Origin: Cetobacterium somerae
GTDB taxonomy: Bacteria; Fusobacteriota; Fusobacteriia; Fusobacteriales; Fusobacteriaceae
Reading direction: 5' to 3'
Length of the DNA stretch: 64,000 nucleotides
Assembly (NCBI RefSeq): GCF_022430525.1
Contig: NZ_CP092520.1
Coordinates: 1-64,000 of the forward strand
Below the pieces are notes generated by a model. It was not told the origin of the DNA and searched no databases. It saw nothing but the letters and a program-made list of their open reading frames with translations. Both the position numbers and the translations under genes were made by a program. Below are positions 1 to 28,955 of this stretch, piece after piece. How positions within the stretch are numbered: position 1 is the first letter of the stretch; each line of letters begins with the position of its first letter.

Positions 1-1
1 T

Positions 2-571: not shown

Positions 572-586
572 TAAAGGAGGAAAAAG

Positions 587-946: not shown

Positions 947-964
947 TTAGGAGGATATGACAAA

Positions 965-2068: not shown

Positions 2069-2112
2069 TTAGGAGGGGGAGCAATCCCTTTTCCACTATA
2101 TAAGGTGATTCT

Positions 2113-2499
2113 ATGAAAGAAATAACAGAAAAATCATCCTCAGATACTTTTATAAATAAGGTTTGTGATTTAAAGAGAATATCTGAAGAACAGTTTAAAG
2201 AGCTTCTTTATGGAAAAGATAACCCAGAGAATTTAAATTTAAAAGCTGAAAGGTATATAAAAACATATTTAAGAAATGATGTAGATATGCTGACAGATGA
2301 TAACTGGATAACAGCTAAAGAATTATATATTCATTGGAAAGTATTTGAGGGAGAAGAGAAAGAAGAAGTTTCAAAGGATAAAAAAGATTCTTTAATTGAA
2401 GTGTTGGAATTATTCAAAGATATGGTTGTAAATAGAATTGAGAAAGAAGAGAGTTATACAGGTAAAAGGATAAGAGTTTATAAGGGGAACTATGATTAA
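2113..2499 (+). CDS. Phage head-tail connector protein (putative)
   Basis: A 128-residue, charged and mostly helical protein following the capsid gene, in the place where Xkd/lambda-type phages encode head-tail joining proteins. It has no signal peptide and no membrane segment. It overlaps the next gene by 8 bases, so the two are probably translationally coupled. I do not recognise a specific family; the role is inferred from position and size. Confidence 0.45.
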   Translation: MKEITEKSSSDTFINKVCDLKRISEEQFKELLYGKDNPENLNLKAERYIKTYLRNDVDMLTDDNWITAKELYIHWKVFEGEEKEEVSKDKKDSLIEVLELFKDMVVNRIEKEESYTGKRIRVYKGNYD

Positions 2500-2926
2500 A
2501 CAGAAATTAGAAGAGTTTAAAGCAAAGTTTGAAAAGGCTAAAGGTACAACATGGAGATTATTTTATATAGATGAGATAGAGCAAATTCAAGATAGAACAG
2601 TTTATGTAACTATTTCAAAAGAGAGTCATAAAAATAAGCAAAAAGAAGCTACTTTAGTTTTCTCCTATGTAAGAAATAATGTTTATAAAGGAACTTTAGA
2701 CTTTAGAGAAGAGGTTGTTGAATTCATAAAATATCTAGCTTTAGAGTTTGCAGAACCTACATTTTTTAATAAAGATAATGAATATGATATAGATTACCAA
2801 TATGAAGAAGAAGGTGATTATAGAATAGCTGAAGTAACAGCAACATTTAATTATACAAGATATAGACCTAAAGATGACAGAATGCTAATGGACAAGTTAG
2901 TAGATAGAATTAAGATAAATGATTGA
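2492..2926 (+). CDS. Phage tail terminator/neck protein (putative)
   Basis: A 144-residue protein whose start overlaps the end of the preceding connector gene. The predicted mixture of an N-terminal helix (residues 1-18), a beta-rich middle and an acidic DIDYQYEEEGDY stretch (about residues 97-110) is compatible with tail-completion proteins that cap the tail tube at the neck. The next gene is the tail sheath, which supports a neck or tail-terminator role. This is inference from order; no diagnostic motif is visible. Confidence 0.45.
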   Translation: MIKQKLEEFKAKFEKAKGTTWRLFYIDEIEQIQDRTVYVTISKESHKNKQKEATLVFSYVRNNVYKGTLDFREEVVEFIKYLALEFAEPTFFNKDNEYDIDYQYEEEGDYRIAEVTATFNYTRYRPKDDRMLMDKLVDRIKIND

Positions 2927-2935
2927 GGAGGATAG

Positions 2936-4108
2936 ATGGCAAAGTTAAATGGAGGATTACCAGACTTTGGAATGGTTTTTAAAGAGAAAGCAGCAGTTGC
3001 AGTATCTGGAGCAGTAAGAGGAGTATTAGGAGTTTTAATTCCTGATGATACTTCAGATAAGATAAAGACAGTTTGTTTAAGCTCATTAGATATAAAGCAA
3101 GATGAATGGACAGAGGATAATTTATTATTTATAAAGTCTTTAGCTTTTTTAGGAAATCCATTTAAGGTAATCCTATATAGAGTAAAAATAGATTTATCAA
3201 ATTTACAAGAAGTATTAAAAACAGTAGAAAAAGATGAGCCTAATTATTTTAGTATTCCAATTATTCCAGTTGTGGCCAAAGCTAAATCAGGCTCAACCTT
3301 AAAAACAGATGTAGAAAGTTGGTTAAATAATCTAAGAAATGAAGAGGGGATAAAATTAGGAAAAGAAGTATCAACAATTAAATTAGTAACAAGTTGTGAT
3401 GTAGAGCCAAATAAACCATATATTATAGATTATTCATCTAAGCAAACACACCATGTAGTTGCTGGATTAGAGAATAAGGTTTTAACAGCTCAAGAGTATA
3501 GTTTATGTGTAGCTTCACTATGTGCAGGAGTTCCATTAAACGCAAGTATCACGAATATGAATCAACCATGGTTAAAATCATTTAAAAGCTCAGTTGCTAA
3601 TGAGGATGAAGAGATAGCAAAAGGAAAAGTATTAACTGGATATGATGGAGAAAAATATACAATTCTAAGAGGTGTAACATCATTTACAGAAGCTACAGAT
3701 GATAAGAATGTAAGTTTTACTAAGATAAGAAAAATGGAGATAATGGACATTCATCAAAAAGATATAAGAAATACTTTTAAGAGTTCATATAGAGGAAGAT
3801 ATCAAAATACATATGATAATAAAAGGCTATTATTAGGAGCTATAAATAGTTACTTATCAACATTCAAAAAGAATGGCCAATTAAATCCAAGTTATGACAA
3901 TAAAATGGTAATAGATTTAGAAGCACATAGAAAGTTTTTATTAGAGAAAGGCACATATAAGGGTAAAGCAATTACTGAAGAGGATATAAAGAAAATGTCA
4001 GATTATGAATTAGCAAGAATAGATACTGATGATAAAGTCTTTGCATATATTCCTCAATATAAACCGACTGATGTAATGGAAGATTTCTATGGAGAAGCAA
4101 TAATGTAG
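2936..4108 (+). CDS. xkdK: Phage contractile tail sheath protein (XkdK-like)
   Basis: A 390-residue tail sheath protein, the contractile outer tube. It begins with a glycine-rich strand and the AVAVSGAVRGVLGVLIPDD stretch typical of sheath N-termini, has the internal NKVLTAQEYSLCVASLCAGVP block (about residues 180-200) that resembles the conserved insertion/handshake region of PBSX XkdK, and ends with the YIPQYKPTDVMEDFYGEAIM C-terminal strand that wraps neighbouring subunits. The following tube and chaperone genes confirm a myovirus-type tail. Ribosome binding site GAGGAGG is 7 bases from the ATG. Confidence 0.85.
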   Translation: MAKLNGGLPDFGMVFKEKAAVAVSGAVRGVLGVLIPDDTSDKIKTVCLSSLDIKQDEWTEDNLLFIKSLAFLGNPFKVILYRVKIDLSNLQEVLKTVEKDEPNYFSIPIIPVVAKAKSGSTLKTDVESWLNNLRNEEGIKLGKEVSTIKLVTSCDVEPNKPYIIDYSSKQTHHVVAGLENKVLTAQEYSLCVASLCAGVPLNASITNMNQPWLKSFKSSVANEDEEIAKGKVLTGYDGEKYTILRGVTSFTEATDDKNVSFTKIRKMEIMDIHQKDIRNTFKSSYRGRYQNTYDNKRLLLGAINSYLSTFKKNGQLNPSYDNKMVIDLEAHRKFLLEKGTYKGKAITEEDIKKMSDYELARIDTDDKVFAYIPQYKPTDVMEDFYGEAIM

Positions 4109-4118
4109 GAGGGAGAAA

Positions 4119-4562
4119 ATGGAATTTAAACCAGATCAGGTAGTAAATGGATCGTGGGGAAAGGTATATATGAATGGTAGGGATATAGCAGAGTTAGAAT
4201 CGTTTACCATGAAGATGACTTACCAAAGTAAAGATATAAAACTGTATGGTGGAGAGATAGGAACAAAGAATACAGGAGTAAAGATAGAAGCGACATTGAA
4301 ATTAAAAAAGGTATACTCAACAGAGCTGCAGATTTTAAAAGATGTTCAAAATGGAAAGCTAAATACTTACTGTAATTTGAATGTTCAATTAGATGACCCC
4401 GATGGAGCATTAGGAGCTGAAGCAGTAGCTATAAAAGATGCCTTATTTATAGGTGATATAGATTTACTATCATTTACAAAGGATGAATTAGTAGAAAGGG
4501 AATTTAAGTTAGCAATACTTAAAAGTAATATAGAAGAGCTAGAAAGCATAGATGATATATAG
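4119..4562 (+). CDS. xkdM: Phage tail tube protein (XkdM-like)
   Basis: A 147-residue inner tail tube protein of the XkdM family. The motif GSWGKVYMNGRDIAELESF near the N-terminus and the strand pattern ending in VEREFKLAI (about residues 124-135) are the family's typical start and finish. It is placed between the sheath and the tail assembly chaperone as in PBSX. Its length is as usual for the family. Ribosome binding site AGGAGGG. Confidence 0.85.
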   Translation: MEFKPDQVVNGSWGKVYMNGRDIAELESFTMKMTYQSKDIKLYGGEIGTKNTGVKIEATLKLKKVYSTELQILKDVQNGKLNTYCNLNVQLDDPDGALGAEAVAIKDALFIGDIDLLSFTKDELVEREFKLAILKSNIEELESIDDI

Positions 4563-4571
4563 GAGAGAAAA

Positions 4572-4949
4572 ATGGAGCTAAAACAGTTAATAGATAAAGC
4601 AGAGTTGATAGTTAAAAAAGAGGATAAAAGGGAACGTAAAACCATAAAGATAAAAAGGTTTGAAAATCTAGGGATAGAGAATCCATATGTAATTATAGAG
4701 AAACCAACATTAACTACAATTATTGCTTCTAGTGAAAGAGCAGGAAATAACTTATATGCTCTATCAGAATCAATGAAATACCCAGACTTATCAAATAAAG
4801 AGTTACAAAAAGCATTTAAAACAAATAATAAACAAGCTCTTTTAAAGAAGATGTTTACAGAGGATGAGATAGATGAAATTAATGATGTTTTAATATCACT
4901 AGCAAGTAAAAAGACTAAAATTGAAATTGTAGATGATATAAAAAACTAA
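4572..4949 (+). CDS. xkdN: Phage tail assembly chaperone, short form (XkdN-like)
   Basis: A 125-residue tail assembly chaperone of the XkdN type, encoded between the tube and the tape measure gene. Such proteins coat the tape measure while the tube polymerises. The frame ends in ATA AAA AAC TAA, and the bases 4940-4946 form the canonical slippery heptamer A AAA AAC in the right phase, so this is the zero-frame short product of a frameshifting pair. Ribosome binding site AGGAGAG lies just before the ATG. Confidence 0.8.
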   Translation: MELKQLIDKAELIVKKEDKRERKTIKIKRFENLGIENPYVIIEKPTLTTIIASSERAGNNLYALSESMKYPDLSNKELQKAFKTNNKQALLKKMFTEDEIDEINDVLISLASKKTKIEIVDDIKN

Positions 4950-5116
4950 TTAAAAAGAGTGATGATTTGTATAGGCTTTACTATTCACATATAGAGCTTA
5001 AATATAATATTTTTACTAAGCCACTAACAGAATTGGATACTATAGAAAAATCATTCTTTGATGCATGTATGTTATTAAAATTAGAATTAATGAAGAAACA
5101 AAATGAGGGAGTGTAA
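4572..5116 (+). CDS. Tail assembly chaperone, long form made by -1 ribosomal frameshift
   Basis: Slipping back one base on A AAA AAC (4940-4946) continues the chaperone frame from 4946 through LIKKSDDLYRLYYSHIELKY and on to a TAA at 5114-5116. This adds 56 residues to give about 181. The extension has no good start of its own, is helix-prone, and fills the gap between the chaperone and tape measure genes. This is the same arrangement as lambda gpG/gpGT and PBSX-type tail genes. The slippery site and open extension are directly visible; frameshifting efficiency is not. Confidence 0.75.
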
Positions 5117-5138
5117 AAGCTCCCTTTGATGTAAAGAG

Positions 5139-7376
5139 GTGGATAAAATAGCAAGTGAAACTTTAAAGATAGAAGTAATTGCAACCTCTAAAGGTGAAAA
5201 AGAGGTTGAGATATTAGAAAATAAAATAGATAAGCTAGGAAAGACCTCTGGATATAGTTCTCAAGAGATAGAGAAGATATCTAAAAGTACTCAAAAGGCA
5301 GCTAAAGGAACTAAGAAAGCTAAAGAAGAAACTAATTATTTTATAGATAAATTAAAAGAATATTCTCAGATAGCAGCAGTTATTGCAGGGATAAAATTAG
5401 CAACAAATGAGTTTGTAAGTTTTGATAATGTTCTGAGAAGATTAAAAGCAACAACAGGAGCTAGTTATTTAGAAATGAGAATGTTAGAGTACCAAGCTAG
5501 AAAATTGGGTAAAAGTACAGAATGGAGTGCTCAAGATTCAGCAGAAGCACAATTAGCATTTTCAAAAGCAGGGTTTACAGTTGCACAATCGTTAGCAGCT
5601 ATGAGTGGAGTATTGAATACAGCAACAGTAGGAGAACTAGGATTAGCAGAGGCAGCTGAATTAGTAGGAGGTACATTAAGAACTTTTAAAATGGAAGCTA
5701 GTGAAGCTACAAGAGTTGGAGATATGTTAGCAAAGACAGCAGATATAACTTCAACAGATGTGAGAGGATTAGGAGAATCCATAAAAGAAGTTGGTGGAGA
5801 TACTAGATTATTTGGATTAGATTTAAGTCAAACACTAGGTATCTTAGGATCATTAGGAAATGAAATGCTAAAAGGTGGAAGAGCAGGTAATAGTTTGAGA
5901 GCTGCCTTATCAGCTTTAAAGAATTCAGATAAAAGAGAACTTCTAGCAAAATATAAAGTTGATGTTGTAGATGATAAAGGTAAATTTAAAAACTTTATAG
6001 ATATAGCTAAAGATATGAAAGTTAAACTAAAAGTAGTTAGTGAAGTAGAAAGAGCAGATGTATTAAATAAAGTATTTGGAGAAGAGGGTGGAAGAGCAGT
6101 AACAAGGATAATGAACTTAGATATGAGTGATTTAGATAAGTTAAATTCTACTATAGCAAACTCAGAGGGATATGCTAAAGACTTTGCAAATACTTTAAAT
6201 GGTGGATTAGGTGGAGCTTTAAAAGGTTTAAAATCTATGCTAGGAGAAGTAGCTATAGCTTATGGCCAATTCTTAGAACCTTCTTTAATAACTTTAACTT
6301 ACTTAGCTACAGAAGCAGCAGGAGCAATAGCAGGATTTGGAAATTGGTTGAATAGTGGAAGTTATTTAGCAAGTGCTTTAGGGTTTGCAATAACTGGTGT
6401 AACAACAGGATTAGTGGTTTATAAAGGTGTACTTATGGCCACAACTTTATGGACCAAAGCTACAGCATTGGCAACAGGTGGATTAGCAGCAGTTCAAAAG
6501 ATATTGAGAACAGCATTTTTAGTATCAGCAATAAGTGGTAGTGGTTTAAATGCAGTACTAGGAGTTATGAATGTTTTATTAGCTCCAATAACAGGAACAG
6601 TATTAGGAGTGGCAGCAGCTATTGCAGGTGTTGGAATGGGATTTGTATTCCTATATAAAAAAGTTGAATGGTTTAAAAAAGCAATAGATCCATTATTAGA
6701 AAAAATAAAATCATTAGTTAATTGGATGGCTAAATTAAAGTTTGTTCAAAAAGGAATAGAAGCAGCTAAAAAAGTAAAAGATACAGTTTTACATGGTGGA
6801 GCAACTAAACCACAAGAAGAACAAATGGATAAAGAGATTGATGACTACCTTGAAAAGCAAAGATTATTATTAGGAGAGGGAAAAGTAGAACAAAGTGAAG
6901 TTAATAATACTTCTTATAGTATTTCTAATAGTAAAAAATCTAAAGAAGTACAGCATAATGGATTCTATTTAAGAGGAGATAAAAACGGTGAAGGTCGTAT
7001 GGCCAAGCTAATGACATCAAATCCAAAACTAGATGAAAATGGAAATATTATTATAGATAAAACCTCAAATACAACCATTGATAAAAGTTCTAAATATACT
7101 AATAATAGAAATAAGAGTGAGGTTAATAACAAAGTAGATAAAAGCATTACAAATAATAAAAGTAATGTTTTTAACAAGAATACATTAAATGACACTAAAG
7201 AATCATTTGAAGAGAAGATACTTAGCTTATTAGAAAATATAAAGAATGGAATAGTTAATATAAAAAATGGACATACTATATCTGTAGTAATTCCTCCAGA
7301 ACTAAGTGGAGATGAATTGATAATAAGAATGGTAGAAGATTTAAAAGTAGCTATTCTTAATTTACAAGGAGCTTAA
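5139..7376 (+). CDS. xkdO: Phage tail tape measure protein (TP901 family)
   Basis: A protein of about 745 residues that sets tail length. Residues 1-60 form a charged coiled coil. Residues 80-330 carry the TP901-type core, with LGKSTEWSAQDSAEAQLAFS and the GNSLRAALSAL motif. Residues 370-510 hold hydrophobic membrane-like helices, and residues 600-680 an asparagine/serine/lysine-rich low-complexity linker. The GTG at 5139 lies inside the ribosome binding site AAGAGGTGG, so initiation there is doubtful. The codon correctly spaced from it is ATA at 5148, which would give a protein beginning ASETLK after Met. It ends directly at the start of the next gene. Confidence 0.85.
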   Translation: MDKIASETLKIEVIATSKGEKEVEILENKIDKLGKTSGYSSQEIEKISKSTQKAAKGTKKAKEETNYFIDKLKEYSQIAAVIAGIKLATNEFVSFDNVLRRLKATTGASYLEMRMLEYQARKLGKSTEWSAQDSAEAQLAFSKAGFTVAQSLAAMSGVLNTATVGELGLAEAAELVGGTLRTFKMEASEATRVGDMLAKTADITSTDVRGLGESIKEVGGDTRLFGLDLSQTLGILGSLGNEMLKGGRAGNSLRAALSALKNSDKRELLAKYKVDVVDDKGKFKNFIDIAKDMKVKLKVVSEVERADVLNKVFGEEGGRAVTRIMNLDMSDLDKLNSTIANSEGYAKDFANTLNGGLGGALKGLKSMLGEVAIAYGQFLEPSLITLTYLATEAAGAIAGFGNWLNSGSYLASALGFAITGVTTGLVVYKGVLMATTLWTKATALATGGLAAVQKILRTAFLVSAISGSGLNAVLGVMNVLLAPITGTVLGVAAAIAGVGMGFVFLYKKVEWFKKAIDPLLEKIKSLVNWMAKLKFVQKGIEAAKKVKDTVLHGGATKPQEEQMDKEIDDYLEKQRLLLGEGKVEQSEVNNTSYSISNSKKSKEVQHNGFYLRGDKNGEGRMAKLMTSNPKLDENGNIIIDKTSNTTIDKSSKYTNNRNKSEVNNKVDKSITNNKSNVFNKNTLNDTKESFEEKILSLLENIKNGIVNIKNGHTISVVIPPELSGDELIIRMVEDLKVAILNLQGA

Positions 7377-8030
7377 ATGAATTTAGAGTTAGAGAAATTA
7401 AAAGCAACATCTAGTTTAGCAAGTGTTGATTCAGAACTTCAAATATCTCAATGGGCAATAAATAAAGTAACTAAAGGAATAGCTAATACAGCTTATGACT
7501 TATATCAAAATACAGGACTTTATAATTATGTATCTAAAGTAGCTCAGATATTAAAAAAGGTAAATGTTTATATTATAGATGAAGATTCACAGTTAGAAAA
7601 TATATTAACTCAAAATCTATATAAGTTCCCAATAACACCAGATCAAATAAATTTTAAGGATGATTACACCATAGAAGAGGTTGAAACAATAGCAGGGAAA
7701 ATAAACTATATAAAAGATGTTGATATAAGGGAGATTAATTTTAGAAGTACTTTTCCTGCTGTATATTATCCATTTTCAGAAGATTATAGTAAATTTGATT
7801 GGGCTTGTGTTAAATCAATAGAAGAAATAAGAGCTAAAAATAAACCTGTAAAATTAGTTATAACAGGATTAGGAATAGTTTTTAGGTGTTATATAGAAAG
7901 ATTTAATAAGAATAGTACAGGAGAGGGAGATATAGAGTTTATTATCAGTTTTGTAGAAGCTAAGGACCATAAAAGTTATGAAACAGAATCAAAGTATAGC
8001 CAATTTAAACCAAAGGAGTTTAGTAGTTAG
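7377..8030 (+). CDS. xkdP: Baseplate hub-adaptor protein (XkdP-like, no LysM domain)
   Basis: A 217-residue protein starting on the base after the tape measure stop codon. Its middle has the strand NLYKFPITPDQINF (about residues 81-94) followed by a long beta-rich domain, matching XkdP-type proteins that join tape measure to hub. Unlike many family members it lacks a recognisable C-terminal LysM peptidoglycan-binding repeat and ends soon after the beta domain. Gene order tape measure - this gene - hub supports the call. Confidence 0.7.
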   Translation: MNLELEKLKATSSLASVDSELQISQWAINKVTKGIANTAYDLYQNTGLYNYVSKVAQILKKVNVYIIDEDSQLENILTQNLYKFPITPDQINFKDDYTIEEVETIAGKINYIKDVDIREINFRSTFPAVYYPFSEDYSKFDWACVKSIEEIRAKNKPVKLVITGLGIVFRCYIERFNKNSTGEGDIEFIISFVEAKDHKSYETESKYSQFKPKEFSS

Positions 8031-9023
8031 ATGATAGAAGTACTATTAGTAAATACAGAAGATAAAATATTGGATATAACTGATTTAGTTAAAAGAGGAA
8101 TGACTTTAAGTAAAAGCCTAAGTGAATTTGCTTGGGAATTAGAGTTTGATATAGTTAAAGATTCTGTAAAAATTGATATTGGAAATTTAGTTATTTTAAA
8201 ACTTGATAATAAAGAGATATTTTCAGGAGTAATTATAAAAGATAATAAGTTTAAAGCTATGGATTATTCATTTTATTTAAATCAAAATAAAGAAACATTC
8301 CAATTTGTTGATGTAAAAGTAGAGGTATGTATTAGAGAACTTGTAAATGTCTTAGGTGGAGAAGTTGGAACTATAGAAGGAACAAATACCAACATTGATA
8401 AGTTTTATTTTGGAACTAGTATAGGGAGCATAATCAAAGAAATTATAGACAATATAAAAGCTTTAGAAGGTAAAGAGTATGACTTCTATTATGAGCTTGG
8501 TAAATTTCATTTTAAAGCTAGAGATAAAGTAAGGGTATTGTCTAATGAGTTAAAACCAACAACCTATATAAAAGGAATAAATAAGGACTTTGAATTTAAT
8601 GCTTTGAATTATATAAAACCACCAGTTTATAGCAGAAGTATGGAGAATATGAAAAACTCTATAAAGGTTTATACACAAAAGGGAAATAATTATATCCAAG
8701 TTGGAGAATCTAAAGATGATAAATCTATAAAAAGATATGGATTACTTCAAGATGTTATAAGTATAAAAGAAGCAGAAGTTGGAGTTAATAAGAATAAAGC
8801 TGAAAATATATTAAAACTAAGTAATAAGTTATCTGAAAATTTAACTGTAGAAATTCCATTTATAGCTGAGATTATTAATCCTGGAAGAGTTCTAAAGTTA
8901 AACTATCAAGAGTTAGATATAACAGGTATATTTGAAGTTAAATCAGTTGTTTATACTATTGCTGCTAAAGATATGAGAATTATGGCTAAAATGGATTTGG
9001 AGAGATTGAATTATGAAGAATAA
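8031..9023 (+). CDS. xkdQ: Baseplate hub protein (XkdQ-like / late control D type)
   Basis: A 330-residue baseplate hub protein. It starts directly after the stop of the preceding gene and shows the family order of an N-terminal beta domain (residues 1-90), a central tube-like domain, and a C-terminal region with NKLSENLTVEIPFIAEIINPGRVL (about residues 265-290) followed by the ITGIFEVKSVVY strand. This is the LysM-docking/hub fold typical of gpD, gp44 and XkdQ. It overlaps the next gene by 11 bases. No lytic domain is visible. Confidence 0.75.
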   Translation: MIEVLLVNTEDKILDITDLVKRGMTLSKSLSEFAWELEFDIVKDSVKIDIGNLVILKLDNKEIFSGVIIKDNKFKAMDYSFYLNQNKETFQFVDVKVEVCIRELVNVLGGEVGTIEGTNTNIDKFYFGTSIGSIIKEIIDNIKALEGKEYDFYYELGKFHFKARDKVRVLSNELKPTTYIKGINKDFEFNALNYIKPPVYSRSMENMKNSIKVYTQKGNNYIQVGESKDDKSIKRYGLLQDVISIKEAEVGVNKNKAENILKLSNKLSENLTVEIPFIAEIINPGRVLKLNYQELDITGIFEVKSVVYTIAAKDMRIMAKMDLERLNYEE

Positions 9024-9492
9024 TAAAATTAAATACAAAAAAGCCATAAATGATTTAGCATGGCTTTTAGTAACTAGAAATAATAAAAATTGGATGGGAG
9101 CTATTACAGGAGAAGTGGTAAAAGCTCCACCTAATTTAGAGGTAAAAATAGATCCTAAGATAACTTTAAAAACTAAAAATATAGTTATATCAGAAGAAAA
9201 GATATCAACATATACTAGAGAGTTTAAATCGTGGGGTAATGTAGATGAGATAGTTATAAATGGAGAGATAGAAACAAATTCATCAAATACTGAAGGAGGA
9301 CCAGGACCACATAAACATCAGCATGGAACAATCTCAGGAACTTTAAAAGGGAAAGGGACATTTAAGCTGAGTGGAACAAATGAATGGACAGATGATTTAA
9401 AAGTTGGGGATATGGTATTACTAGTTCCAACTAATGAACATGAAATTTTTTACTTAGTAGATAAGGTGGTGAGAGCTGATGCTACCAAGTAG
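9013..9492 (+). CDS. xkdR: Baseplate protein (XkdR-like, DUF2577)
   Basis: A 159-residue protein with an OB-like beta domain beginning at NWMGAITGEVVKAPPNLEVKI (about residues 25-45) and a histidine cluster HKHQHG near residue 100. It ends with the KVGDMVLLVPTNEHEIFYLVDKV strand typical of XkdR/DUF2577 proteins. These sit at the central spike or its junction with the hub in PBSX-type tails. It overlaps its neighbours on both sides (11 and 14 bases), indicating coupled translation. Confidence 0.75.
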   Translation: MKNNKIKYKKAINDLAWLLVTRNNKNWMGAITGEVVKAPPNLEVKIDPKITLKTKNIVISEEKISTYTREFKSWGNVDEIVINGEIETNSSNTEGGPGPHKHQHGTISGTLKGKGTFKLSGTNEWTDDLKVGDMVLLVPTNEHEIFYLVDKVVRADATK

Positions 9493-9952
9493 TTATTCAA
9501 AATATAAAGATGTAACTAAAGAGATAGAAGATTATCAAATTAAGCAAGAGGAAGAGATAAAGAATATAAAAGTCAAAGAGGTACAGTTTGATTTTGAAAA
9601 GGGAGATTTCTACTTTACTGGGAATGAACCTAAGTATTTATTAACTAATAAAGAACTAGTAATACAATGGGTAAAGAAGTTATTTTTAACTAATAGAAAT
9701 AGTTGGAATTGTTATAAGAAAGATTTAAAGTATGACTTTGGATTAGATATAAAAAAATATGTTGGTAAGCAGCTATTTCCAGATTTATTTCATATCGAAT
9801 TAATAAAAGATGATATTTATAAAAGTTTATTAAATCACAGACTTATAAAAAATGTTCATTATCTTCAGTTAGTTCAAGTAGATGAAAAAATGTATTGTGG
9901 TTTTATATTAGAGTTAGAAGAGGGAGCAATAGAGTATGAGGAGGTATTTTAG
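9479..9952 (+). CDS. xkdS: Baseplate wedge protein (XkdS-like, DUF2634/gp25 type)
   Basis: A 157-residue protein of the XkdS family, which is related to T4 gp25 and forms part of the baseplate wedge. The features are an LTNKELVIQWVKKLFLTNRN segment at about residues 54-75 and a YDFGLDIKKYVGK motif at about residues 83-95. Its start lies inside the end of the xkdR-like gene, with AAGGTGGTGAG as ribosome binding site. Its stop TAG shares its last base with the GTG start of the next gene. Confidence 0.8.
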   Translation: MLPSSYSKYKDVTKEIEDYQIKQEEEIKNIKVKEVQFDFEKGDFYFTGNEPKYLLTNKELVIQWVKKLFLTNRNSWNCYKKDLKYDFGLDIKKYVGKQLFPDLFHIELIKDDIYKSLLNHRLIKNVHYLQLVQVDEKMYCGFILELEEGAIEYEEVF

Positions 9953-10992
9953 TGGATAGTGAAAAGATAAATGAAATAACAGAAAGAATGGCCAGTAGAA
10001 TATCTTTTAATACTGAGATAGGAAGTTTTGCAAGAGATATATTAAGAGCTGTAGCAGTTGAAATGGCTATGGAAGAAAATTTATATAGTGATGATTTAAA
10101 CACTAGATTTATTGATACAGCTACAGGAATAGATTTAGATATGTGTGTTAGGGATAAGGGGAAACAAAGAATAGAAGCTATATCAGCTACAGGAGAAGTT
10201 AAAATAATTGGAGCTAATGGAACTGTAATAAAAAAGGGAACTATAGTTACAAGTTCATCTAATGAATATAGAACAATTGAAGAAAAAGAGATAGTTAATG
10301 TATCTACCTTTGTTAAAATTGAAGCTGTACAAGCAGGAGAAAAAGGAAATTGTGAAGTCGGAGAGATAACAAAGTTTAAAGAGGATTACATTGGATTAAC
10401 TTCAGTAACAAATTTAACTAAAATATCAGGAGGAAGAAATCAAGAAACAGATGATGAATTAAAAGGTAGAGTTTCAAGATATATTCAATACCCACCTATA
10501 TCATGGAATCAATACTACTTTGAAGATAAAGCTAAAGAGATAGCTGAAGTTGATAAGGTTAAATGTATTCCATGTTGGAATGGAAGAGGTACAGTAAGGT
10601 TAATTGTAACTGAAAAAACTAATCCAATAGCAACTGAAGAAGTAAAAAATAAGATAAAGGATCTAATTGATAATGAGATTATATCAGATATTAATTTAAC
10701 AGTAGATTCAGTAGTAATTAATGATATAGCTTTAGATTTTGAAGCAGAACTTAATACTGACTATTTAGAGAGTGAAGCAAAAGAAGAGATAAAGGCAGCA
10801 TTAAATGAATTTCTTTTTAAGAATATCTTTAAAGAAAGAATTTTATATTTTGAGGTAGCTTCAATTATAAACAACTGTAAAAGTATTGAGAAACTATCAG
10901 ACTTAAAAATAAATGGGATTAAAGATGATTTAGTGATAGAGCCTGATAAATTATGTAGGGTAAATACAATAACAATAGGAGGAATTAGTTAA
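9952..10992 (+). CDS. xkdT: Baseplate assembly protein J (XkdT-like)
   Basis: A 346-residue gpJ/XkdT baseplate wedge protein starting at GTG, with the ribosome binding site GAGGAGG in the previous gene. The conserved blocks are FIDTATGIDLDMCVRDKG (residues 45-63), the ATGEVKIIGANGTVI strand (residues 72-88) and GGRNQETDDELKGRVSRYIQYP (about residues 160-182). This is the standard signature of the family. It ends in a one-base overlap with the next ATG. Confidence 0.9.
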   Translation: MDSEKINEITERMASRISFNTEIGSFARDILRAVAVEMAMEENLYSDDLNTRFIDTATGIDLDMCVRDKGKQRIEAISATGEVKIIGANGTVIKKGTIVTSSSNEYRTIEEKEIVNVSTFVKIEAVQAGEKGNCEVGEITKFKEDYIGLTSVTNLTKISGGRNQETDDELKGRVSRYIQYPPISWNQYYFEDKAKEIAEVDKVKCIPCWNGRGTVRLIVTEKTNPIATEEVKNKIKDLIDNEIISDINLTVDSVVINDIALDFEAELNTDYLESEAKEEIKAALNEFLFKNIFKERILYFEVASIINNCKSIEKLSDLKINGIKDDLVIEPDKLCRVNTITIGGIS

Positions 10993-11363
10993 TGGCAGGT
11001 TTTACAAATTATGGAGAAAATCTTGTTATAAATGAAGTTTTGAGATCAAGACAACTTTATGTAGGACTAATGAAAGCTAATCCAGAAGAAGCAGGGAATA
11101 GTTCAAGTGAAGTAAATGCAATTTCATACGAAAGACAACCAATACAATATATAGAACCTAAGTTAGGAGAAACATATAATCATGAAGATATACAGTTTCC
11201 TACAGCGACAGAAGATTGGGGTTGGATAACTCATATAGCAATTTTTGATTCTAAAGAGAATGGAAATATGATATTGTTCTCAGCTTTAGATTTTAAGAAA
11301 GAGATAAGAGCAGCTGATATTTATAAGATACCTAGAGCTTATTTGATATTTTCAATAGATTAG
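10992..11363 (+). CDS. Phage tail-fibre-associated structural protein
   Basis: A 123-residue protein inserted between the XkdT-like and XkdU-like genes. Residues 75-120 read EDWGWITHIAIFDSKENGNM followed by LFSALDFKKEI and a proline-bearing end, the W-G-x-I-x-H-x-A-I-F-D pattern of a widespread family usually annotated as phage tail fibre or structural protein. PBSX itself has no such gene at this place, so this is a variation of the usual order. The exact position in the virion is unknown. Confidence 0.6.
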   Translation: MAGFTNYGENLVINEVLRSRQLYVGLMKANPEEAGNSSSEVNAISYERQPIQYIEPKLGETYNHEDIQFPTATEDWGWITHIAIFDSKENGNMILFSALDFKKEIRAADIYKIPRAYLIFSID

Positions 11364-11373
11364 GAGAGAGATA

Positions 11374-12060
11374 ATGAAAGGGAATAATAGACCTCTTATA
11401 AAAAAAGAAGTTTGGGAATTGAATGAGCAATTAGTAGAAGAGTTTTTAGAAAATATAGTTCATGACTTTGCATTGGATTCTAAAGATATTGGAGCTATAT
11501 CCAATCATATTTCAAATCAGCTAATAACAGTAATAAAAGATACGGCTAAATTAAAATCTAAGAGTGAGTTGACAGTTTTAGGAATAGATACATCAAAAGA
11601 TTTTACTAAGAAAATATTATCTAATTTACCTCCATATATGAGAAAAGCTAAATTAATAATAGAGTTAGCTAAAACAATTTCAGTAGAACTTCAAAGATTA
11701 GATTTATTAAAGCAGGAAAAGATAAGTTCATTATTAATTTCAACAAATTCAGTAAGTTTGAATAGATTGGAAAAAATATACGGAAGTAAATTAAGTAACG
11801 GTTTGGGAATCAGAACTAGACAAAATATATTGATAGCAAAAGAGATTACAAAATATGAAAGGTTTAGCAAAGATTTTATATATAAGATTAGTCAGTACTT
11901 TGAGGTAGGAGAAATACTAGACATAATTAATAATAAAGCTAATAAATCATTAACTATAGTTTTAAAGGATAAAAAAGAGAATATAAAGACATATAATTTA
12001 TATCAGAAATTTATAAGAGATGTGTCTCCTGCTTTTTATGAGATAAACATTATAAATTAA
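11374..12060 (+). CDS. xkdU: Baseplate/tail protein (XkdU-like, DUF2313)
   Basis: A 228-residue protein of the XkdU/YmfQ family. The central NLPPYMRKAKLIIELAKTIS segment (about residues 84-103) and the LNRLEKIYGSKLSNGLGI segment (about residues 128-147) are the typical family blocks and carry residues for docking to the wedge. These proteins link the baseplate wedge to the tail fibre, which is the next gene. Ribosome binding site GGAGAGAG precedes the ATG. Confidence 0.75.
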   Translation: MKGNNRPLIKKEVWELNEQLVEEFLENIVHDFALDSKDIGAISNHISNQLITVIKDTAKLKSKSELTVLGIDTSKDFTKKILSNLPPYMRKAKLIIELAKTISVELQRLDLLKQEKISSLLISTNSVSLNRLEKIYGSKLSNGLGIRTRQNILIAKEITKYERFSKDFIYKISQYFEVGEILDIINNKANKSLTIVLKDKKENIKTYNLYQKFIRDVSPAFYEINIIN

Positions 12061-12075
12061 GGAAGGTGGAAAAAG

Positions 12076-13435
12076 TTGTCTAAAGAGGAAAAACAAATAA
12101 AAGAAATAATAGATAATGATTTAGACACAGGAAGAGATCTTGTAACAGAAAATTATCAATTAGAAATTTTAACATTAAAAGATAAAGTAGATTTAAGACG
12201 ATTTTCTAGAGCGTTTTTAAAAGTAGATAAATTATTAAAAAATATATTTAGTAATAAATTAGATAAAGGAGAGTATGGTGGTAATGCTCAAGATTTAAAG
12301 AATGAGATAGATACTAAATTGCCAATAAATGAAGCATATAGAAACTATGCTAACCTTACAGGTGATACGCCATCACAGGTGGATAATCTTACCACACCAG
12401 GTAAATATCAATGTGGGGCTAGTGGTGGTTTTATATCATTTATCCTACTTAGATATTATACAAATGTATCCTGGACATGTAAGACAAATACACCATGACT
12501 ATGATAATGGTATTCAATGGAGAGATAAATATAATGGTACATTTGAAGGGATGTCTTGGACTTATATGTGGGATTCTTTAAATTCTCCTAAAACACATGA
12601 AACTGAAAATCAAGGACATAAATTATTTACTGCTTTAGGTGCTTTAAACTTAAAAAATTGGCTAGTTACTAACTATACAACATTAATGAATAATATAAGA
12701 GATACTCTAAACAATTCTATTAATACAAAACTTAGTCATGGTGGTTATAATAATACAGCACAACAACTAAAAAATGAAATTGATACTAAGTTCCCTAGTT
12801 CAGAAGCATGGATAAATTATTTCAAAGAATCTGGTGACACATCAGCATTAGTAGATAAACTGCTTAGTCCTGGTCAATACCAGTGTGGTGCTAATAGAGG
12901 TACTTATCATCTATCTTATATTAATGTTTATGAAATGTACCCAGGTCACATTAGGCAAGTTAGAGAACATTGGAATGGTGGTTCTGCTTGGAGAGAAATA
13001 TATAGAACTGGAAATCCTGACTTTACCAATGTTGGCTGGAATTTTTATTTAGATACTAAAAATATTAATGAGAGATATTGCCCTTACAGAGTTGGAGATA
13101 TTTTAACTACTACTATTCCTAGTAACCCTGGTGAAGTTTGGTCTGGTACAGGTTGGGAAAAAATAGAGGGTTGCTTCTTATATGCACATAACTCAGCAGG
13201 TGATAGAGGTGGAGAAAATACAGTGTATCTTAATGTAGGACATTTGCCACCGCATAATCATGGTAGTGGCTATATTAGACATAATGCTGGAGATGGTGAG
13301 TGGGATTGGAGACCTTCAACATCTAATAATTATAATGACGGTAGATATCATGATTCTGATACTGTAGGTAGTGGAGCAGGTATTAATAATATGCCTAGTT
13401 ACTACACAGTACATGTATGGAAAAGAATAGTTTAA
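12076..13435 (+). pseudogene. Tail fibre gene with an internal duplication, split by one extra base
   Basis: Two overlapping frames make one fibre of about 453 codons. The first (TTG 12076, ribosome binding site GGAAGGTGG) runs in frame to about 12432. After one surplus base at 12430-12433 the second frame carries on to 13435, and the total length is 3n+1. The product has two diverged copies of a module of about 105 residues (near 12258-12585 and 12727-13060), each with QCGA, YHLSY and MYPGH(V/I)RQ. The tip domain (GDILTTTIPSNPGEVWSGTGW, GHLPPHNHG, final YYTVHVWKRIV) is the common C-terminal fold of phage tail and baseplate fibres. The break falls inside copy 1 exactly where copy 2 reads straight through. 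It could be a real mutation, a phase-variable switch, recoding or a sequencing error. Confidence 0.8.
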
Positions 13436-13450
13436 GGAGGTATAAAAATT

Positions 13451-14080
13451 ATGAAATATTTTTATTTAGATAAAAATCATGCTAAGAATGGTATAGTTAT
13501 GTCTGCCTATTCCAATTCTAAACCAGAACCGTATTATGTAGAGGAGGGTTATGCAGAATATATAGGTGACTCACTACCCATATATGTTTACTATGACGAA
13601 GCTAAAGATTTGGTTAGACCTTCAACTTTAGAAGAATTAGTAACTTTAGGTGTAAAAAAATTAGAACCTAATCAGATTTTAGAGGGTGGTAATATTAAAA
13701 CGTTTAACCCTGCTTACGAATATATAGAAAACAATGAAATAAAATCTAAAACTAGAGAGATGTTAGTATTAGAAGAAATTGAAAAGCCTTTTGATAACGA
13801 ATACATAAAGAATGGAAAATTAAAAACAATTCCTAAAAAACCTAAAGATATGGTAAAAGGAGAATTTGATTTTATCCAAGAACAATGGAATGAAAAAGCA
13901 ACTGATGATGAAAAATTAGAAAACTTAAAAGAAAAAATAGTTATAATAAATTCTGAAATTTTAAGAATTAAAAGTGCAGGATTTGTAGATATTAAATTAG
14001 AGAAAGAGTTAGAAAGATTAAAGGATTTACATTACCAATTATCTTATGATATAGCAAATAAATTAAATGAAAATTTTTAA
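13451..14080 (+). CDS. Protein of unknown function, possible tail fibre assembly protein
   Basis: A 209-residue soluble protein encoded directly after the fibre with ribosome binding site AAGGAGG. Residues 1-70 are rich in tyrosine and beta-prone, and residues 150-205 form a charged coiled coil (EKIVIINSEILRIKS to LERLKDLHYQL). Two-part proteins like this often act as fibre chaperones or attachment adaptors, and the position fits, but I do not recognise the family. Confidence 0.5.
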   Translation: MKYFYLDKNHAKNGIVMSAYSNSKPEPYYVEEGYAEYIGDSLPIYVYYDEAKDLVRPSTLEELVTLGVKKLEPNQILEGGNIKTFNPAYEYIENNEIKSKTREMLVLEEIEKPFDNEYIKNGKLKTIPKKPKDMVKGEFDFIQEQWNEKATDDEKLENLKEKIVIINSEILRIKSAGFVDIKLEKELERLKDLHYQLSYDIANKLNENF

Positions 14081-14092
14081 GAGGTGATTAAT

Positions 14093-14548
14093 ATGGAATT
14101 AAAATATAGATTTGGAAAAATATCAATATCAAGAATGAAAGGGGTAGATGCTAGATTAATAATTCTAGCAACTACTTATTTAGCTCTTGGAAAAAAAGAT
14201 ATAGGGATTACTTATGGAGCTAGAACTTCTGAAGAACAAAAAGATATGCTAAAAAAAGGCAAAACTCAAGTATCTAAAAGTAAACATTTATTGAATAAAG
14301 AGGAACTTGTAACACAAGGTGGATTCAAAATGGAGATAATGGAATCTAATGCAATTGATATAGTAGCTTATAAAGATGGTAAAGATATTTGGGATAGAGC
14401 TTATTATGAGGATATTATAAAAGATATGAAAGAGATAGCTAAACATTATGGTTGGCAAGATATTATAAATTGGGGTTGGGATTTTAAATCTTTAAATGAT
14501 CCTTATCATATTAGTGTAAAAGAACCAGGTGATGGAGGAATAAAATGA
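14093..14548 (+). CDS. Endolysin, M15 / L-alanyl-D-glutamate peptidase type
   Basis: A 151-residue enzyme expected to cut the peptide stem of peptidoglycan at lysis. The metal-binding pattern of M15 D-Ala/VanY-type peptidases is visible: SKSKHLLN (His near residue 64), NAIDIVAY (Asp near residue 85) and DPYHIS (His near residue 142), with the preceding WGWDF. The ATG at 14093 is preferred over the GTG at 14084, because the latter lies in the ribosome binding site GAGGTG. No signal peptide is present, so export would need the holin-like proteins next door. The stop overlaps the next start by 4 bases. Confidence 0.75.
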   Translation: MELKYRFGKISISRMKGVDARLIILATTYLALGKKDIGITYGARTSEEQKDMLKKGKTQVSKSKHLLNKEELVTQGGFKMEIMESNAIDIVAYKDGKDIWDRAYYEDIIKDMKEIAKHYGWQDIINWGWDFKSLNDPYHISVKEPGDGGIK

Positions 14549-14886
14549 TAATAGTTGATGAGGCTTTGAAAATAATTAATAAATTTATTCCAGATAAAAA
14601 TACTCAAAGTCAAATGGAGATAGAATTAAAAAAGTTAGAGGTTGAAGATTTTAGTAATAAGAGGGGTACTAGTTTAGAAAAGGCAGTAAGTATGGTTTTT
14701 CCTCTTATAGCATTTATATTTTGTGGTTTTCTTGTAAGTAATCTTCTTGGAATGTGGATAGGATTTATATTTAAAACACAATCTCCAATATTTCCTATAG
14801 ATGACAGGATGTATCAAATAATAATGGTTTATTTGACAGGGTTCTTTGGAAATAGAAGTATTAAAAGTTGGAGGGGAGAGAAATAA
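14545..14886 (+). CDS. Holin-like small membrane protein
   Basis: A 113-residue protein with a charged N-terminal helix (residues 1-45) and two hydrophobic segments (about residues 47-75 and 88-104), followed by a basic end. The membrane topology and the place between endolysin and a second holin-like gene suggest a phage lysis protein of the three-helix holin type. The family was not recognised with certainty. It overlaps both neighbours. Confidence 0.55.
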   Translation: MIIVDEALKIINKFIPDKNTQSQMEIELKKLEVEDFSNKRGTSLEKAVSMVFPLIAFIFCGFLVSNLLGMWIGFIFKTQSPIFPIDDRMYQIIMVYLTGFFGNRSIKSWRGEK

Positions 14887-15317
14887 AAGATATTTTTGAA
14901 AAATTACTTAATTATCTACATAATTTAATCTTTTGGCTTAGTACAGGATTTGTAAGTGCTATTGGTGGAATAGATGGAGATCTAACTTGTTTATTTTATC
15001 TAACTATAATTGATTGTCTAAGTGGAATTTTGAAAGGAATAAAAGAAGGGCATGTTTTTTCAAAGAATATGTATAGAGGCTTTATTGTTAGAAAGCCAGC
15101 TATATATCTTGCTGTAGCTACTATGACTCAACTAGAAAGAACAACTTTTATGGGAGAAATTCCATTGCGGTCATCTATAATAATTGGGTGTACAATAATG
15201 GAGTCTGTATCTATAATTGAAAATTTAAAGCAGTTGGGTGTTTGGCTTCCCAAAATTGTGGATGATATATTAGCGGTTAAAAGAAAAGTTTTGGATAAAA
15301 ATAATAAAGAACATTGA
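14868..15317 (+). CDS. Phage holin (holin 4 / TcdE family)
   Basis: A protein of up to 149 residues with about three membrane helices and the family block LTCLFYLTIIDCLSGILKGI (about residues 39-58) and later IIGCTIMESVSIIENLKQLG. This is the toxin-secretion/phage-lysis holin pattern. The TTG at 14868 lies upstream of the strong ribosome binding site GGAGGGGAGAG, whereas the codon properly spaced after it is ATA at 14883. That start would give Met followed by KDIFEKLLNYLHN. It overlaps the preceding gene by 19 bases if TTG is used. Confidence 0.75.
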   Translation: MEGREIKDIFEKLLNYLHNLIFWLSTGFVSAIGGIDGDLTCLFYLTIIDCLSGILKGIKEGHVFSKNMYRGFIVRKPAIYLAVATMTQLERTTFMGEIPLRSSIIIGCTIMESVSIIENLKQLGVWLPKIVDDILAVKRKVLDKNNKEH

Positions 15318-16774: not shown

Positions 16775-17497
16775 TTAATTTGTAAAACTTAAATATTCAT
16801 TTAAACTTTCAATTATACAATTATAAAAGAAGTCGTAGGCTTCATCATAATCTCCATAGTAGCTTTTATCAAGAGCTTGATAGTATTCTAATCTATCAGT
16901 AGCTAAAATAGTTATAGGAGGATATCCAAGTTTCAAAAGCTCTAAATTAGTTAGTAATCTTGAAGTTCTACCATTCCCATCAATGAATGGATGGATATTA
17001 ATAAATTTACAAGTAAATTCAATAATTCTGTTAATCGTAACAGGTTCAGAAGTATACCAAGCCAATAAATCATTCATTTCTTGAGGAATTAAATGAGAAC
17101 TAGTAACATCGTGAGTAGCACCACCAATTCTAACATCAACACTTCTATATTTTCCTGCATTAGCTCTATCAATTCCATCTAAAATAATAGCATGAATAGA
17201 TTTTATATCGTATTCTGATAAAGTTTCTTTTTTTAAATCTTCAATAAAAAATAAAGCTTCAGCATGATTTTTTACTTCTAAATGTTCTCTTAAAGTTTTT
17301 TTAGCAACAGTAATTCCAGTTTCTATAATAACTCTAGTTTCCATTTCAGTAAGAGTATTTCCTTCAATAGCATTTGAGTTATATGTATTTTTAATTATAT
17401 AATTTTCTTTTATTCTTTTTATTTCACCTTGATTAAGAGGTCTTCTATGATCTAGTTCACTTTTTAATTCATAAATTTTCTCTAATTTATTATTCAT
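16775..17497 (-). CDS. Fic family AMP-transferase with N-terminal inhibitory helix
   Basis: A 240-residue Fic protein. The catalytic loop HPFIDGNGRTSR (about residues 165-176) matches HPFx(D/E)GNGRxxR with the active His and the nucleotide-binding Gly-Asn-Gly-Arg. Near the N-terminus, NSNAIEGN (about residues 39-46) fits the inhibitory (S/T)xxxE(G/N) motif of class II Fic proteins, in which the Glu blocks ATP until relieved. The usual activity is AMP transfer to a Tyr, Ser or Thr of a partner protein; the target is unknown. No separate antitoxin gene is needed for this class, and none is adjacent. Confidence 0.85.
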   Translation of the reverse strand: MNNKLEKIYELKSELDHRRPLNQGEIKRIKENYIIKNTYNSNAIEGNTLTEMETRVIIETGITVAKKTLREHLEVKNHAEALFFIEDLKKETLSEYDIKSIHAIILDGIDRANAGKYRSVDVRIGGATHDVTSSHLIPQEMNDLLAWYTSEPVTINRIIEFTCKFINIHPFIDGNGRTSRLLTNLELLKLGYPPITILATDRLEYYQALDKSYYGDYDEAYDFFYNCIIESLNEYLSFTN

Positions 17498-17624: not shown

Positions 17625-17990
17625 TTACTGAAGTAGGCCTCTGATTTCTGCTCCTTTTTTGTAATATAACTCTATATAACCAAGTGCAAACATAATTTCA
17701 CTTTGACTATAATTATGGTTAGAGTTACCTTTTACGTGAGCGATTATATTTTGGGCTTTTTGATGAATTTCTTCAGACATAGTAGGGTTATAAGTTGTAT
17801 TATTAGTTACAGTTAAACCAGAGCCAAGAATTGATGTAATAAAAGGAACTCCAGTAACTAAATCAACTAAATCCTTACAATGAAATTCTCTTTTTCCAAG
17901 TTGAGAGCTATAGCTTTGTAAAAATGCATTGATTTCTTCAATAGACATATTTTCTAATTTTTGTGTAACGTTTGAATAAGTTTGTTTCAT
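17625..17990 (-). CDS. Orphan 121-residue protein of unknown function
   Basis: I do not recognise this protein. It has an N-terminal charged helical part, one moderately hydrophobic glycine-rich stretch (VTGVPFITSILGSGLTV, about residues 45-61) and a C-terminal region with HNYSQSEIMFALGYIELYYKKG. It has its own ribosome binding site AGGAG, which abuts a perfect hairpin (18003-18019), and its own terminator, so it is a single-gene unit. A candidate small RNA is encoded divergently just upstream and could pair with its leader. Confidence 0.6.
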   Translation of the reverse strand: MKQTYSNVTQKLENMSIEEINAFLQSYSSQLGKREFHCKDLVDLVTGVPFITSILGSGLTVTNNTTYNPTMSEEIHQKAQNIIAHVKGNSNHNYSQSEIMFALGYIELYYKKGAEIRGLLQ

Positions 17991-18002
17991 ATGATTTTCT
18001 CC

Positions 18003-18019
18003 TTTGGCATCTTGCCAAA
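18003..18019 (-). promoter_or_regulatory. Hairpin abutting the ribosome binding site of the 121-aa gene
   Basis: The arms TTTGGCA (18003-18009) and TGCCAAA (18013-18019) form a perfect 7-bp stem with a 3-base loop. On the minus-strand mRNA the stem ends in GCCAAA directly before GGAG, so folding could limit ribosome access. GCCAAA is complementary to the repeated TTTGGC loops of the neighbouring RNA candidate. Confidence 0.5.
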
Positions 18020-18068
18020 AATAAGAGAATATGATATTATAAAGTTATCAATAAATTATAATATATAT

Positions 18069-18229
18069 TCAAGAAGACAAAATGTATAAATTTGGCGATT
18101 TATACAACCAATAAATATAAATGAAATTTGGCGATTTTATTTATATTTGACCAATCTATGTAAACAGCATTTTGCTGGAATTTCTCTAAATTTTTTTAGA
18201 GAGCGCAGAGCTTATGAGAGCTCTTTTTT
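18069..18229 (+). ncRNA. Candidate small RNA with two identical UUGGCG hairpin loops
   Basis: A plus-strand stretch with no gene contains five consecutive hairpins. The first (18083-18106) has the 9-bp stem TGTATAAAT/ATTTATACA and loop TTGGCG. The second (18113-18148) has a 15-bp stem of different sequence and the same loop TTGGCG. They are followed by CAGCA/TGCTG (18165-18177), TCTCTAAA/TTTAGAGA (18183-18202), and AGAGCT/AGCTCT with a T6 run (18207-18229), which is a plus-strand terminator. The second stem contains a G-T pair that is a wobble only in plus-strand RNA. A TATAAT at 18057-18062 is a possible -10 box with a weak -35. The 5' end is an estimate. Confidence 0.55.
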
Positions 18230-18757
18230 ATTTTTCTGAGAAATAGATTTTTGAATTTTAGCGACTTCTTTTGATACATTGAACTTTTGCGTTATTTGAT
18301 TGATAGTTAAGTCATTAATTTTATTACTAGGTGCCAAGAACTCGGCAGCAAAAACATTTGCTTGCCATTCAGGGTCTTCATAAATTTTAATATCATCTTC
18401 ACTTCTGCATAGACTAACATTTTTTTTATGTAAAAAAAAGTGCCCCAATTCATGAGCAATTGTAAAACGATCTCTAGAAATACCGTTTAGAGCACCTAGA
18501 TAAACAGATTCTCTAATTCTAATTGTTCCAGTATCAGTATTAGTTTCTGCATATACATTTGGTAGATCTTTATCTTCTAAAATTTCATAATTAAATTCAT
18601 CATCTAATATAGAGTCTATAGATAAAATTTCTAAAAATTTTGTAATATCAATTATATCATTATCTTCAAAGTTCCAAATATCTCTTATTTTTTCAGTTAA
18701 ATTTCTAATCCATTTTCTAGATAATGGAGTTGTTTTAGTTTTAGCTATATTAATCAA
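18212..18757 (-). CDS. ImmA/IrrE family metallopeptidase
   Basis: A 181-residue protein with the zinc protease motif HELGH in FTIAHELGHFFLH (about residues 101-113) and the later acidic/Asn segment EDPEWQANVFAAEFLAP (about residues 127-143), which supplies the third ligand. This is the ImmA/IrrE (DUF955) fold that cleaves or inactivates a partner XRE repressor during induction. Its start lies 17 bases after the stop of the XRE gene upstream, and the two form the usual pair. The 3' end overlaps the plus-strand terminator of the RNA candidate. Confidence 0.85.
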   Translation of the reverse strand: MINIAKTKTTPLSRKWIRNLTEKIRDIWNFEDNDIIDITKFLEILSIDSILDDEFNYEILEDKDLPNVYAETNTDTGTIRIRESVYLGALNGISRDRFTIAHELGHFFLHKKNVSLCRSEDDIKIYEDPEWQANVFAAEFLAPSNKINDLTINQITQKFNVSKEVAKIQKSISQKNKKELS

Positions 18758-18773
18758 TCCTCCCGTGTGTAAA

Positions 18774-19121
18774 TTACTTTAATAAATCTTTAATTTTTTT
18801 TATATCTTCATCAGACAATTCTTTAATTTTTCGAGCACATAACAATCCTAACTCTCTTTGCTTATTAGATAATCCGTCTAAATTGATCTTAGCCTCTTTT
18901 AACGATAAATCAATAGCTTCATTTAATTCATTTATATCCTCCCCACTTAATGAATATAAATTAATTATTTTATCAGAAAAATTATCAGGGATATCCCTTT
19001 TACCATTTTCAATAGCCGATAGATAAGAAATTGAAATACCAAGTTTTGAAGACATATCTGCAATAATTTCATTATTTTTTAATCTTAAGATTCTTAAAAA
19101 TTTTCCAAATTTAGTTACCAT
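18774..19121 (-). CDS. XRE-family repressor paired with ImmA
   Basis: A 115-residue regulator with an N-terminal helix-turn-helix (LGISISYLSAIENGKR, about residues 25-40) and a short helical C-terminal part. It is transcribed with the ImmA-like protease in the classical inducible repressor/antirepressor arrangement of prophages and integrative elements. A well-formed promoter and a long perfect dyad are just upstream, consistent with autoregulation. The divergent side holds no intact early genes, only debris. Confidence 0.85.
   Translation of the reverse strand: MVTKFGKFLRILRLKNNEIIADMSSKLGISISYLSAIENGKRDIPDNFSDKIINLYSLSGEDINELNEAIDLSLKEAKINLDGLSNKQRELGLLCARKIKELSDEDIKKIKDLLK

Positions 19122-25992: not shown

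Positions 25993-28955
<2,963 letters not shown>

Follow-up and report, generated by a model that had tools for sequence, protein, structure and literature searches.

A twin-loop small RNA divergent from the gene of an orphan 121-aa protein: a candidate two-gene module of mobile elements in Fusobacteriaceae

The first 64,000 nucleotides of Cetobacterium somerae contig NZ_CP092520.1 (the window, by which we mean that whole stretch) hold a predicted small RNA that presents one and the same loop on two hairpins and lies divergent from the gene of a 121-aa protein of an orphan family. The architecture of the RNA, its linkage to the gene, the signature of its loops and the purifying selection on the protein were computed directly. 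We infer that the RNA is transcribed, and we offer tentatively, as something a little short of probable, the reading that the pair makes up a two-gene module, carried by prophages and other mobile elements, in which the RNA restrains the divergent 121-aa protein, the loops being the contact element and bound most likely by the partner protein. A function in toxicity or exclusion may be supposed for such a module.

The predicted transcript runs on the plus strand from 18047 to 18230, both ends being taken from the positions of promoter and terminator, and its length of ~185 nt replaces the ~160 bases given in a preliminary description of this DNA. The promoter is of the sigma-70 type with an extended -10 element (TTGCCA, 17 nt, TG-x-TATTAT; 18012..18040, plus strand), and the intrinsic terminator (18207..18234, plus strand), a hairpin at 18207-18224 with a T run, overlaps the 3' end of a metalloprotease gene. 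Two AU-rich plus-strand hairpins, at 18083..18106 and 18113..18148, carry the loop UUGGCG at 18092-18097 and 18128-18133 respectively; the loops lie 36 nt apart and are identical (TTGGCG in the DNA), and the stem sequences differ. Downstream, at 18150..18177 on the plus strand, are the linker ACCAAUCUAU and hairpin 3 (CAGC-loop-GCUG, 18165-18177), both conserved in an alignment of four homologues. The preliminary description had taken a G-U pair and a terminator to favour the plus strand; both are present, the former as G18123-U18138 in hairpin 2, and the promoter lies on that strand too. The plus-strand fold of 18060-18235 has a z-score of -4.7, and none of 200 dinucleotide shuffles folded as well. 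Paired strong hairpins sharing a GC-containing six-base loop within 70 nt occur once in the real window and in none of 30 Markov-simulated 64-kb windows, which bears out the earlier report of identical loops on two differing stems; selection on RNA structure, also proposed there, is supported by the z-score and by the variation of the stems among homologues. Two further contacts within the RNA were considered and rejected. Pairing of UUGG in the loop with the neighbouring ACCAAU to form a pseudoknot was rejected on reasoning: the linker would be too short to bridge the stems, and the two segments show no covariation in the two more distant homologues described below (G031 and G063); kissing between the two identical loops was rejected because they are not mutually complementary.

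The partner gene lies at 17625..17990 on the minus strand and encodes a protein that is predicted to be all-helical (structure model with pLDDT 70 and pTM 0.70). No match to the protein was found in Pfam, PHROG, NCBIfam, PADLOC or PDB sequences, and a Foldseek search of PDB and BFVD with the model returned no fold match at E <= 0.001. Rfam covariance models run against the window gave nothing at gathering score, the best chance matches falling far under the cut-off, so that the earlier statement that no described family has this form holds for RNA and protein alike in these collections. With a pN/pS of 0.23 against its closest homologue (G006), the protein is under purifying selection, and its GRAVY is -0.35; it is a soluble protein and not a hydrophobic one. 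Similarity to RNases is absent. The pI is 6.4 for the window protein and 7.8-9.3 for its relatives, from which a role as an RNA binder is not clear.

A search of 98 Fusobacteriota genomes placed the protein family at five loci, two of them near-identical: the window, G006 contig 2 (protein 95% identical), a 69-kb contig of Cetobacterium sp. 2A (G031; 60%), G063 (46%), and a second locus in G006, on contig 1 (L023; 47%, with an N-terminal extension). Cetobacterium sp. 2A is a relative within the same family, Fusobacteriaceae, as the window genome. Searches of IMG/VR and of phage and plasmid collections with the protein and its alignments found no relative, and a scan of GTDB genomes gave matches only at two places in one Cetobacterium contig. 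The RNA was sought with two covariance models, R1 built from the window, G006 and G031, and R3 built from the window and G006 only, with all three hairpins. Each recovered the RNA in the same 4 of the 98 genomes, every time beside a family gene, and the G063 RNA, which is in neither training set, was found at E 0.0046 (R1) and 7.6e-5 (R3). Elsewhere in the 98 genomes neither model detected an RNA above noise, save artefact copies in G031; a match in G082 (E 0.42) was on inspection the terminator of a protein gene and not the twin-loop RNA. A 16-nt hairpin pattern matched 66 IMG/VR contigs, and a scan of the fetched loci for the twin-loop pair recovered only the window's own locus.

Alignments of the RNA homologues show that the two stems, the linker and hairpin 3 are kept. 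The promoter is kept by inspection, with the window layout also in G006 and G031 and with TTGACT-17-TGC-TAAAAT in G063. The stems have changed by compensatory or unrelated sequence, as is expected of a selected structure. The 3' terminators of the window and G006 RNAs are not alike, and the genes flanking the module vary between loci, so the RNA body and the 121-aa family gene are the constant unit. At all five loci the RNA is on the strand opposite to the family gene. The twin-loop RNA was not detected by covariance model at L023, where a divergent promoter and a terminator hairpin stand at the equivalent position and the hairpin loop is UUGGCG; this element is an RNA candidate, by its sequence unrelated-looking to the twin-loop RNA.

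The loops themselves have a common signature. They read UUGGCG twice in both the window and G006, CGGCAA twice in G031 (context UCGGCAA), UUGCCAG and GUGCCAA in G063, and UUGGCG in the single hairpin of L023, and within one RNA they are either identical or have a common core. Every loop across the four lineages contains YGSCR. Of the distinct hairpins of at least 8 bp in six Fusobacteriaceae stretches, 6 have a YGSCR loop and every one of these belongs to the RNAs described here, such a loop being absent from the roughly 100 other strong ones; in unrelated viral contigs the loop occurred in 4 of 96 hairpins, one such contig having been picked by the hairpin pattern itself. YGSCR was derived after the fact from the first four loci, and L023 is thus its sole independent test; it is also identical on both strands, so the strand is not fixed by the motif. 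Set against the earlier expectation that the loop would be conserved while the stems vary, the result is mixed: each RNA has the same or core-sharing loops and YGSCR is kept, but the exact loop differs between lineages.

An imperfect, operator-like palindrome (18027..18070; arms 18027-18042 and 18056-18070) covers the promoter region of both genes. Imperfect palindromes of ~45 bp are at the same place in G006, G031 and G063, with differing sequence, and the palindrome score was reached by 2 (window), 23 (G006), 0 (G031) and 14 (G063) of 500 shuffles; L023 has a perfect 26-nt palindrome at L023:10104-10129. The palindrome is possibly an operator common to both genes, or it may be a product of mirrored promoters.

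What the loops contact is the point on which explanations divide. The leader of the 121-aa gene forms a hairpin on the minus strand (UUUGGC-AAGAU-GCCAAA, 18003..18019) directly before the Shine-Dalgarno sequence GGAG (17999-18002), and its GCCAAA is an exact complement of the loop context UUUGGC in the window and G006, just as the preliminary description had it. That description suggested control of the neighbouring gene through this pairing, and the loops might indeed pair with GCCAAA (GCCGA in G031) beside the Shine-Dalgarno of the 121-aa mRNA and keep that mRNA from being translated, as the P1/P7 c4 RNA does with ant, with no need of protein contact. In a GC-weighted ranking of the RNA/mRNA matches that lie outside the stretch where the assumed 5' ends overlap in antisense, the SD-adjacent site is the best match for both loops in the window, G006 and G031. 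The G031 loop segment UCGGC matches leader GCCGA at that same site, the U-to-C change in both loops being compensated by A-to-G in the leader, and the G031 loop duplex has an energy of -9.2 kcal/mol with its own leader as against -6.5 with that of the window. Furthermore, the 121-aa gene alone in the window has GCCAAA ahead of a Shine-Dalgarno and start, aside from a match at 27183 inside a coding ORF. The covariation of loop and leader between the window and Cetobacterium sp. 2A gives the pairing idea genuine, if partial, support. However, the longest non-overlapping match is 6 nt in the window and G006 (by the GC-weighted ranking) and 5 nt at the G031 loop, and pairing over these 5-6 bp yields about -0.3 to -2.6 kcal/mol net of opening costs, whereas for the divergent RNA OrzO, whose complementarity is 18 nt, a minimum requirement of 15 continuous base pairs is reported (PMC3919570). 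The window loop forms a good duplex with the window and G031 leaders alike, and shuffled leaders reach the loop match in about 3-5% of cases in the window and 12% in the second lineage; the G031 loop-shuffle control is uninformative, as dinucleotide shuffling cannot break so short a loop. Taken alone, the loop/leader match is statistically weak and energetically marginal. There is no loop/leader match in G063, where an 11-nt match between RNA and leader lies at a different site and in another arm, and by inspection the match is absent from L023. Since both of these keep the loop signature, pairing with the leader is not the general reason for the loop, and we consider translational block by pairing alone to be rather unlikely; pairing with the ribosome-binding site of the protein's own mRNA could still be an extra or lineage-specific layer.

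The persistence of the loop where the leader match is lost favours recognition by protein. In the reading that we prefer, the small RNA, driven by its own promoter, would restrain the divergent 121-aa protein much as an RNA antitoxin or a prophage immunity RNA does; the two identical loops would be the contact element, giving two sites per RNA, and the partner protein would bind them and be sequestered by the RNA. Layout, linkage to the gene and genomic setting suit such a restraining RNA. Related gene pairs keep both the arrangement and the loop signature, which suggests probable restraint by the RNA, either of the partner protein or of its synthesis. By both covariance models the RNA is confined to sites beside 121-aa family genes, and the fifth gene has another RNA candidate with the same loop; the doubling of the loop on unrelated stems would, by analogy, suit an RNA that presents a protein-binding motif. 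Against this reading, it is not evident that the 121-aa protein binds RNA, its model matches no recognisable fold, the loop signature was derived after the fact, and only five loci are known. The partner might instead be a third party, either a host protein or the mRNAs of the host or of an infecting phage, with the 121-aa gene a linked companion co-regulated through the common palindrome. Not every lineage has the loop/leader match, the palindrome over the promoter region at all loci could alone coordinate both genes, and the neighbours are defence-like, all of which would fit; but RNA and gene remain paired while the flanking genes vary, and a different RNA with the same loop accompanies the fifth gene, and we judge a third partner distinctly unlikely. 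It is very improbable that the hairpins act at the level of DNA, as cruciform or operator sites with any RNA incidental: the loop signature is the same on both strands and the palindrome adjoins, as such a role would have it, but the hairpins have kept a plus-strand promoter and terminator beside them, G-U pairing is a feature of RNA, and hairpin 3 and the linker are conserved.

Several known systems invite comparison with the preferred reading. CsrB-type sponge RNAs present the same protein-binding loop motif on several hairpins, and the twin-loop RNA resembles them in this respect; here, however, the motif is other than GGA, and in place of CsrA the proposed partner is an orphan protein encoded alongside. 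The c4 RNA of P1 and P7 is co-transcribed with its target. It is a prophage RNA with short segments, probably placed in loops, that are complementary to the region around the ribosome-binding site of a phage gene, and its specificity differs among related phages (PMC12197685). The twin-loop RNA resembles it in part, in that half the lineages have loops matching the ribosome-binding site, with weak pairing energy, and loop and leader co-vary between two prophages (one compensatory change); but the twin-loop RNA is transcribed divergently by prediction, repeats its loop, and keeps that loop in two lineages that lack leader complementarity. Among type I toxin-antitoxin pairs, ZorO-OrzO, TisB-IstR and ShoB-OhsC each have a small RNA divergent from the adjacent gene of a small protein (PMC3919570), and SymE of SymE-SymR, a soluble 113-aa toxin, is an exception among mostly hydrophobic toxins (PMC4147584). 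The twin-loop RNA is likewise divergent from a protein gene and has its own predicted promoter, a layout seen also in its relatives; unlike type I antitoxins it has no extended complementarity beyond the loop matches and the one 11-nt segment of G063, and its partner, at 121 aa and with negative GRAVY, is not the usual hydrophobic toxin. Type III toxins are RNases, and the gene of each is preceded on its own strand by the RNA, which consists of tandem repeats followed by a terminator (PMC4147584). A repeated RNA element beside a small protein gene in a mobile or defence context recalls ToxIN, AbiQ, CptIN and TenpIN, as does the preferred RNA-protein contact, whereas the RNA here is divergent at all five loci, with two hairpins, and its partner is unlike an RNase. 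It is possible, though somewhat doubtful, that this is a distinct kind of module, in which a linked helical protein of 119-155 aa directly reads a YGSCR hexaloop that a divergent RNA repeats on two unrelated hairpins, the RNA neutralising the protein and a palindromic operator setting the balance; such a module would differ from type I in having no long antisense, and from type III in that the RNA is not upstream and there is neither a tandem array nor an RNase.

Should the RNA indeed neutralise or silence the protein, Fusobacteriaceae would have a toxin or immunity unit under RNA control that belongs to none of the described families; a literature search turned up no such system for these bacteria. 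The pair would then also offer a starting point for learning what an uncharacterised protein family does next to IetAS, DRT and Fic genes, and the natural variants of loop and leader could separate mRNA pairing from protein binding.

In the window, bases 1-15300 encode prophage tail and lysis genes (tail sheath, tape measure, baseplate, endolysin and holin), and the module stands at the lysis-gene end of this prophage; past 15300 the order is Fic-domain gene, 121-aa gene (minus), RNA (plus), IrrE/ImmA-type metalloprotease gene and helix-turn-helix gene. The Fic-domain gene (16775-17497; PADLOC PDC-S04/SoFic) flanks the module on one side, and the ImmA-type metalloprotease with an Xre-type regulator (18212-19121) on the other. 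An extra gene of ~190 aa, PIN-like by eye, adjoins the RNA in G006 and G031. The 69-kb G031 contig, with ParA-like, endolysin and tail-like genes, looks like a phage-plasmid. On contig 5 of G063 (L026:10419-13686), the family gene and RNA adjoin an IetAS-type protease/ATPase defence pair (PADLOC) and prophage lysis genes. At L023:9522-13894 the fifth family gene adjoins a DRT-type reverse transcriptase with a nitrilase domain (PADLOC RT_UG5-nitrilase, E 2e-186), inside an integrase-bearing island that adjoins a guaA-like gene; the candidate RNA there lies between the family gene and the reverse transcriptase, and so might belong to the reverse transcriptase system instead. Across the loci, three are beside lysis genes of prophages or a phage-plasmid, and others are beside Fic, IetAS or the DRT reverse transcriptase.

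We note that a second family gene survives in the window's own genome as a decayed C-terminal remnant (L027, G000:C1:1001596-1001682), in the same chromosomal island as the copy on G006 contig 1. In Cetobacterium sp. 2A (L025:6290-7310), the first 13 kb of the contig resemble a fold-back inverted duplication of its other part; the duplication is frameshifted, has its centre inside hairpin 2 of the RNA, and is probably an assembly artefact or possibly a telomere-like end.
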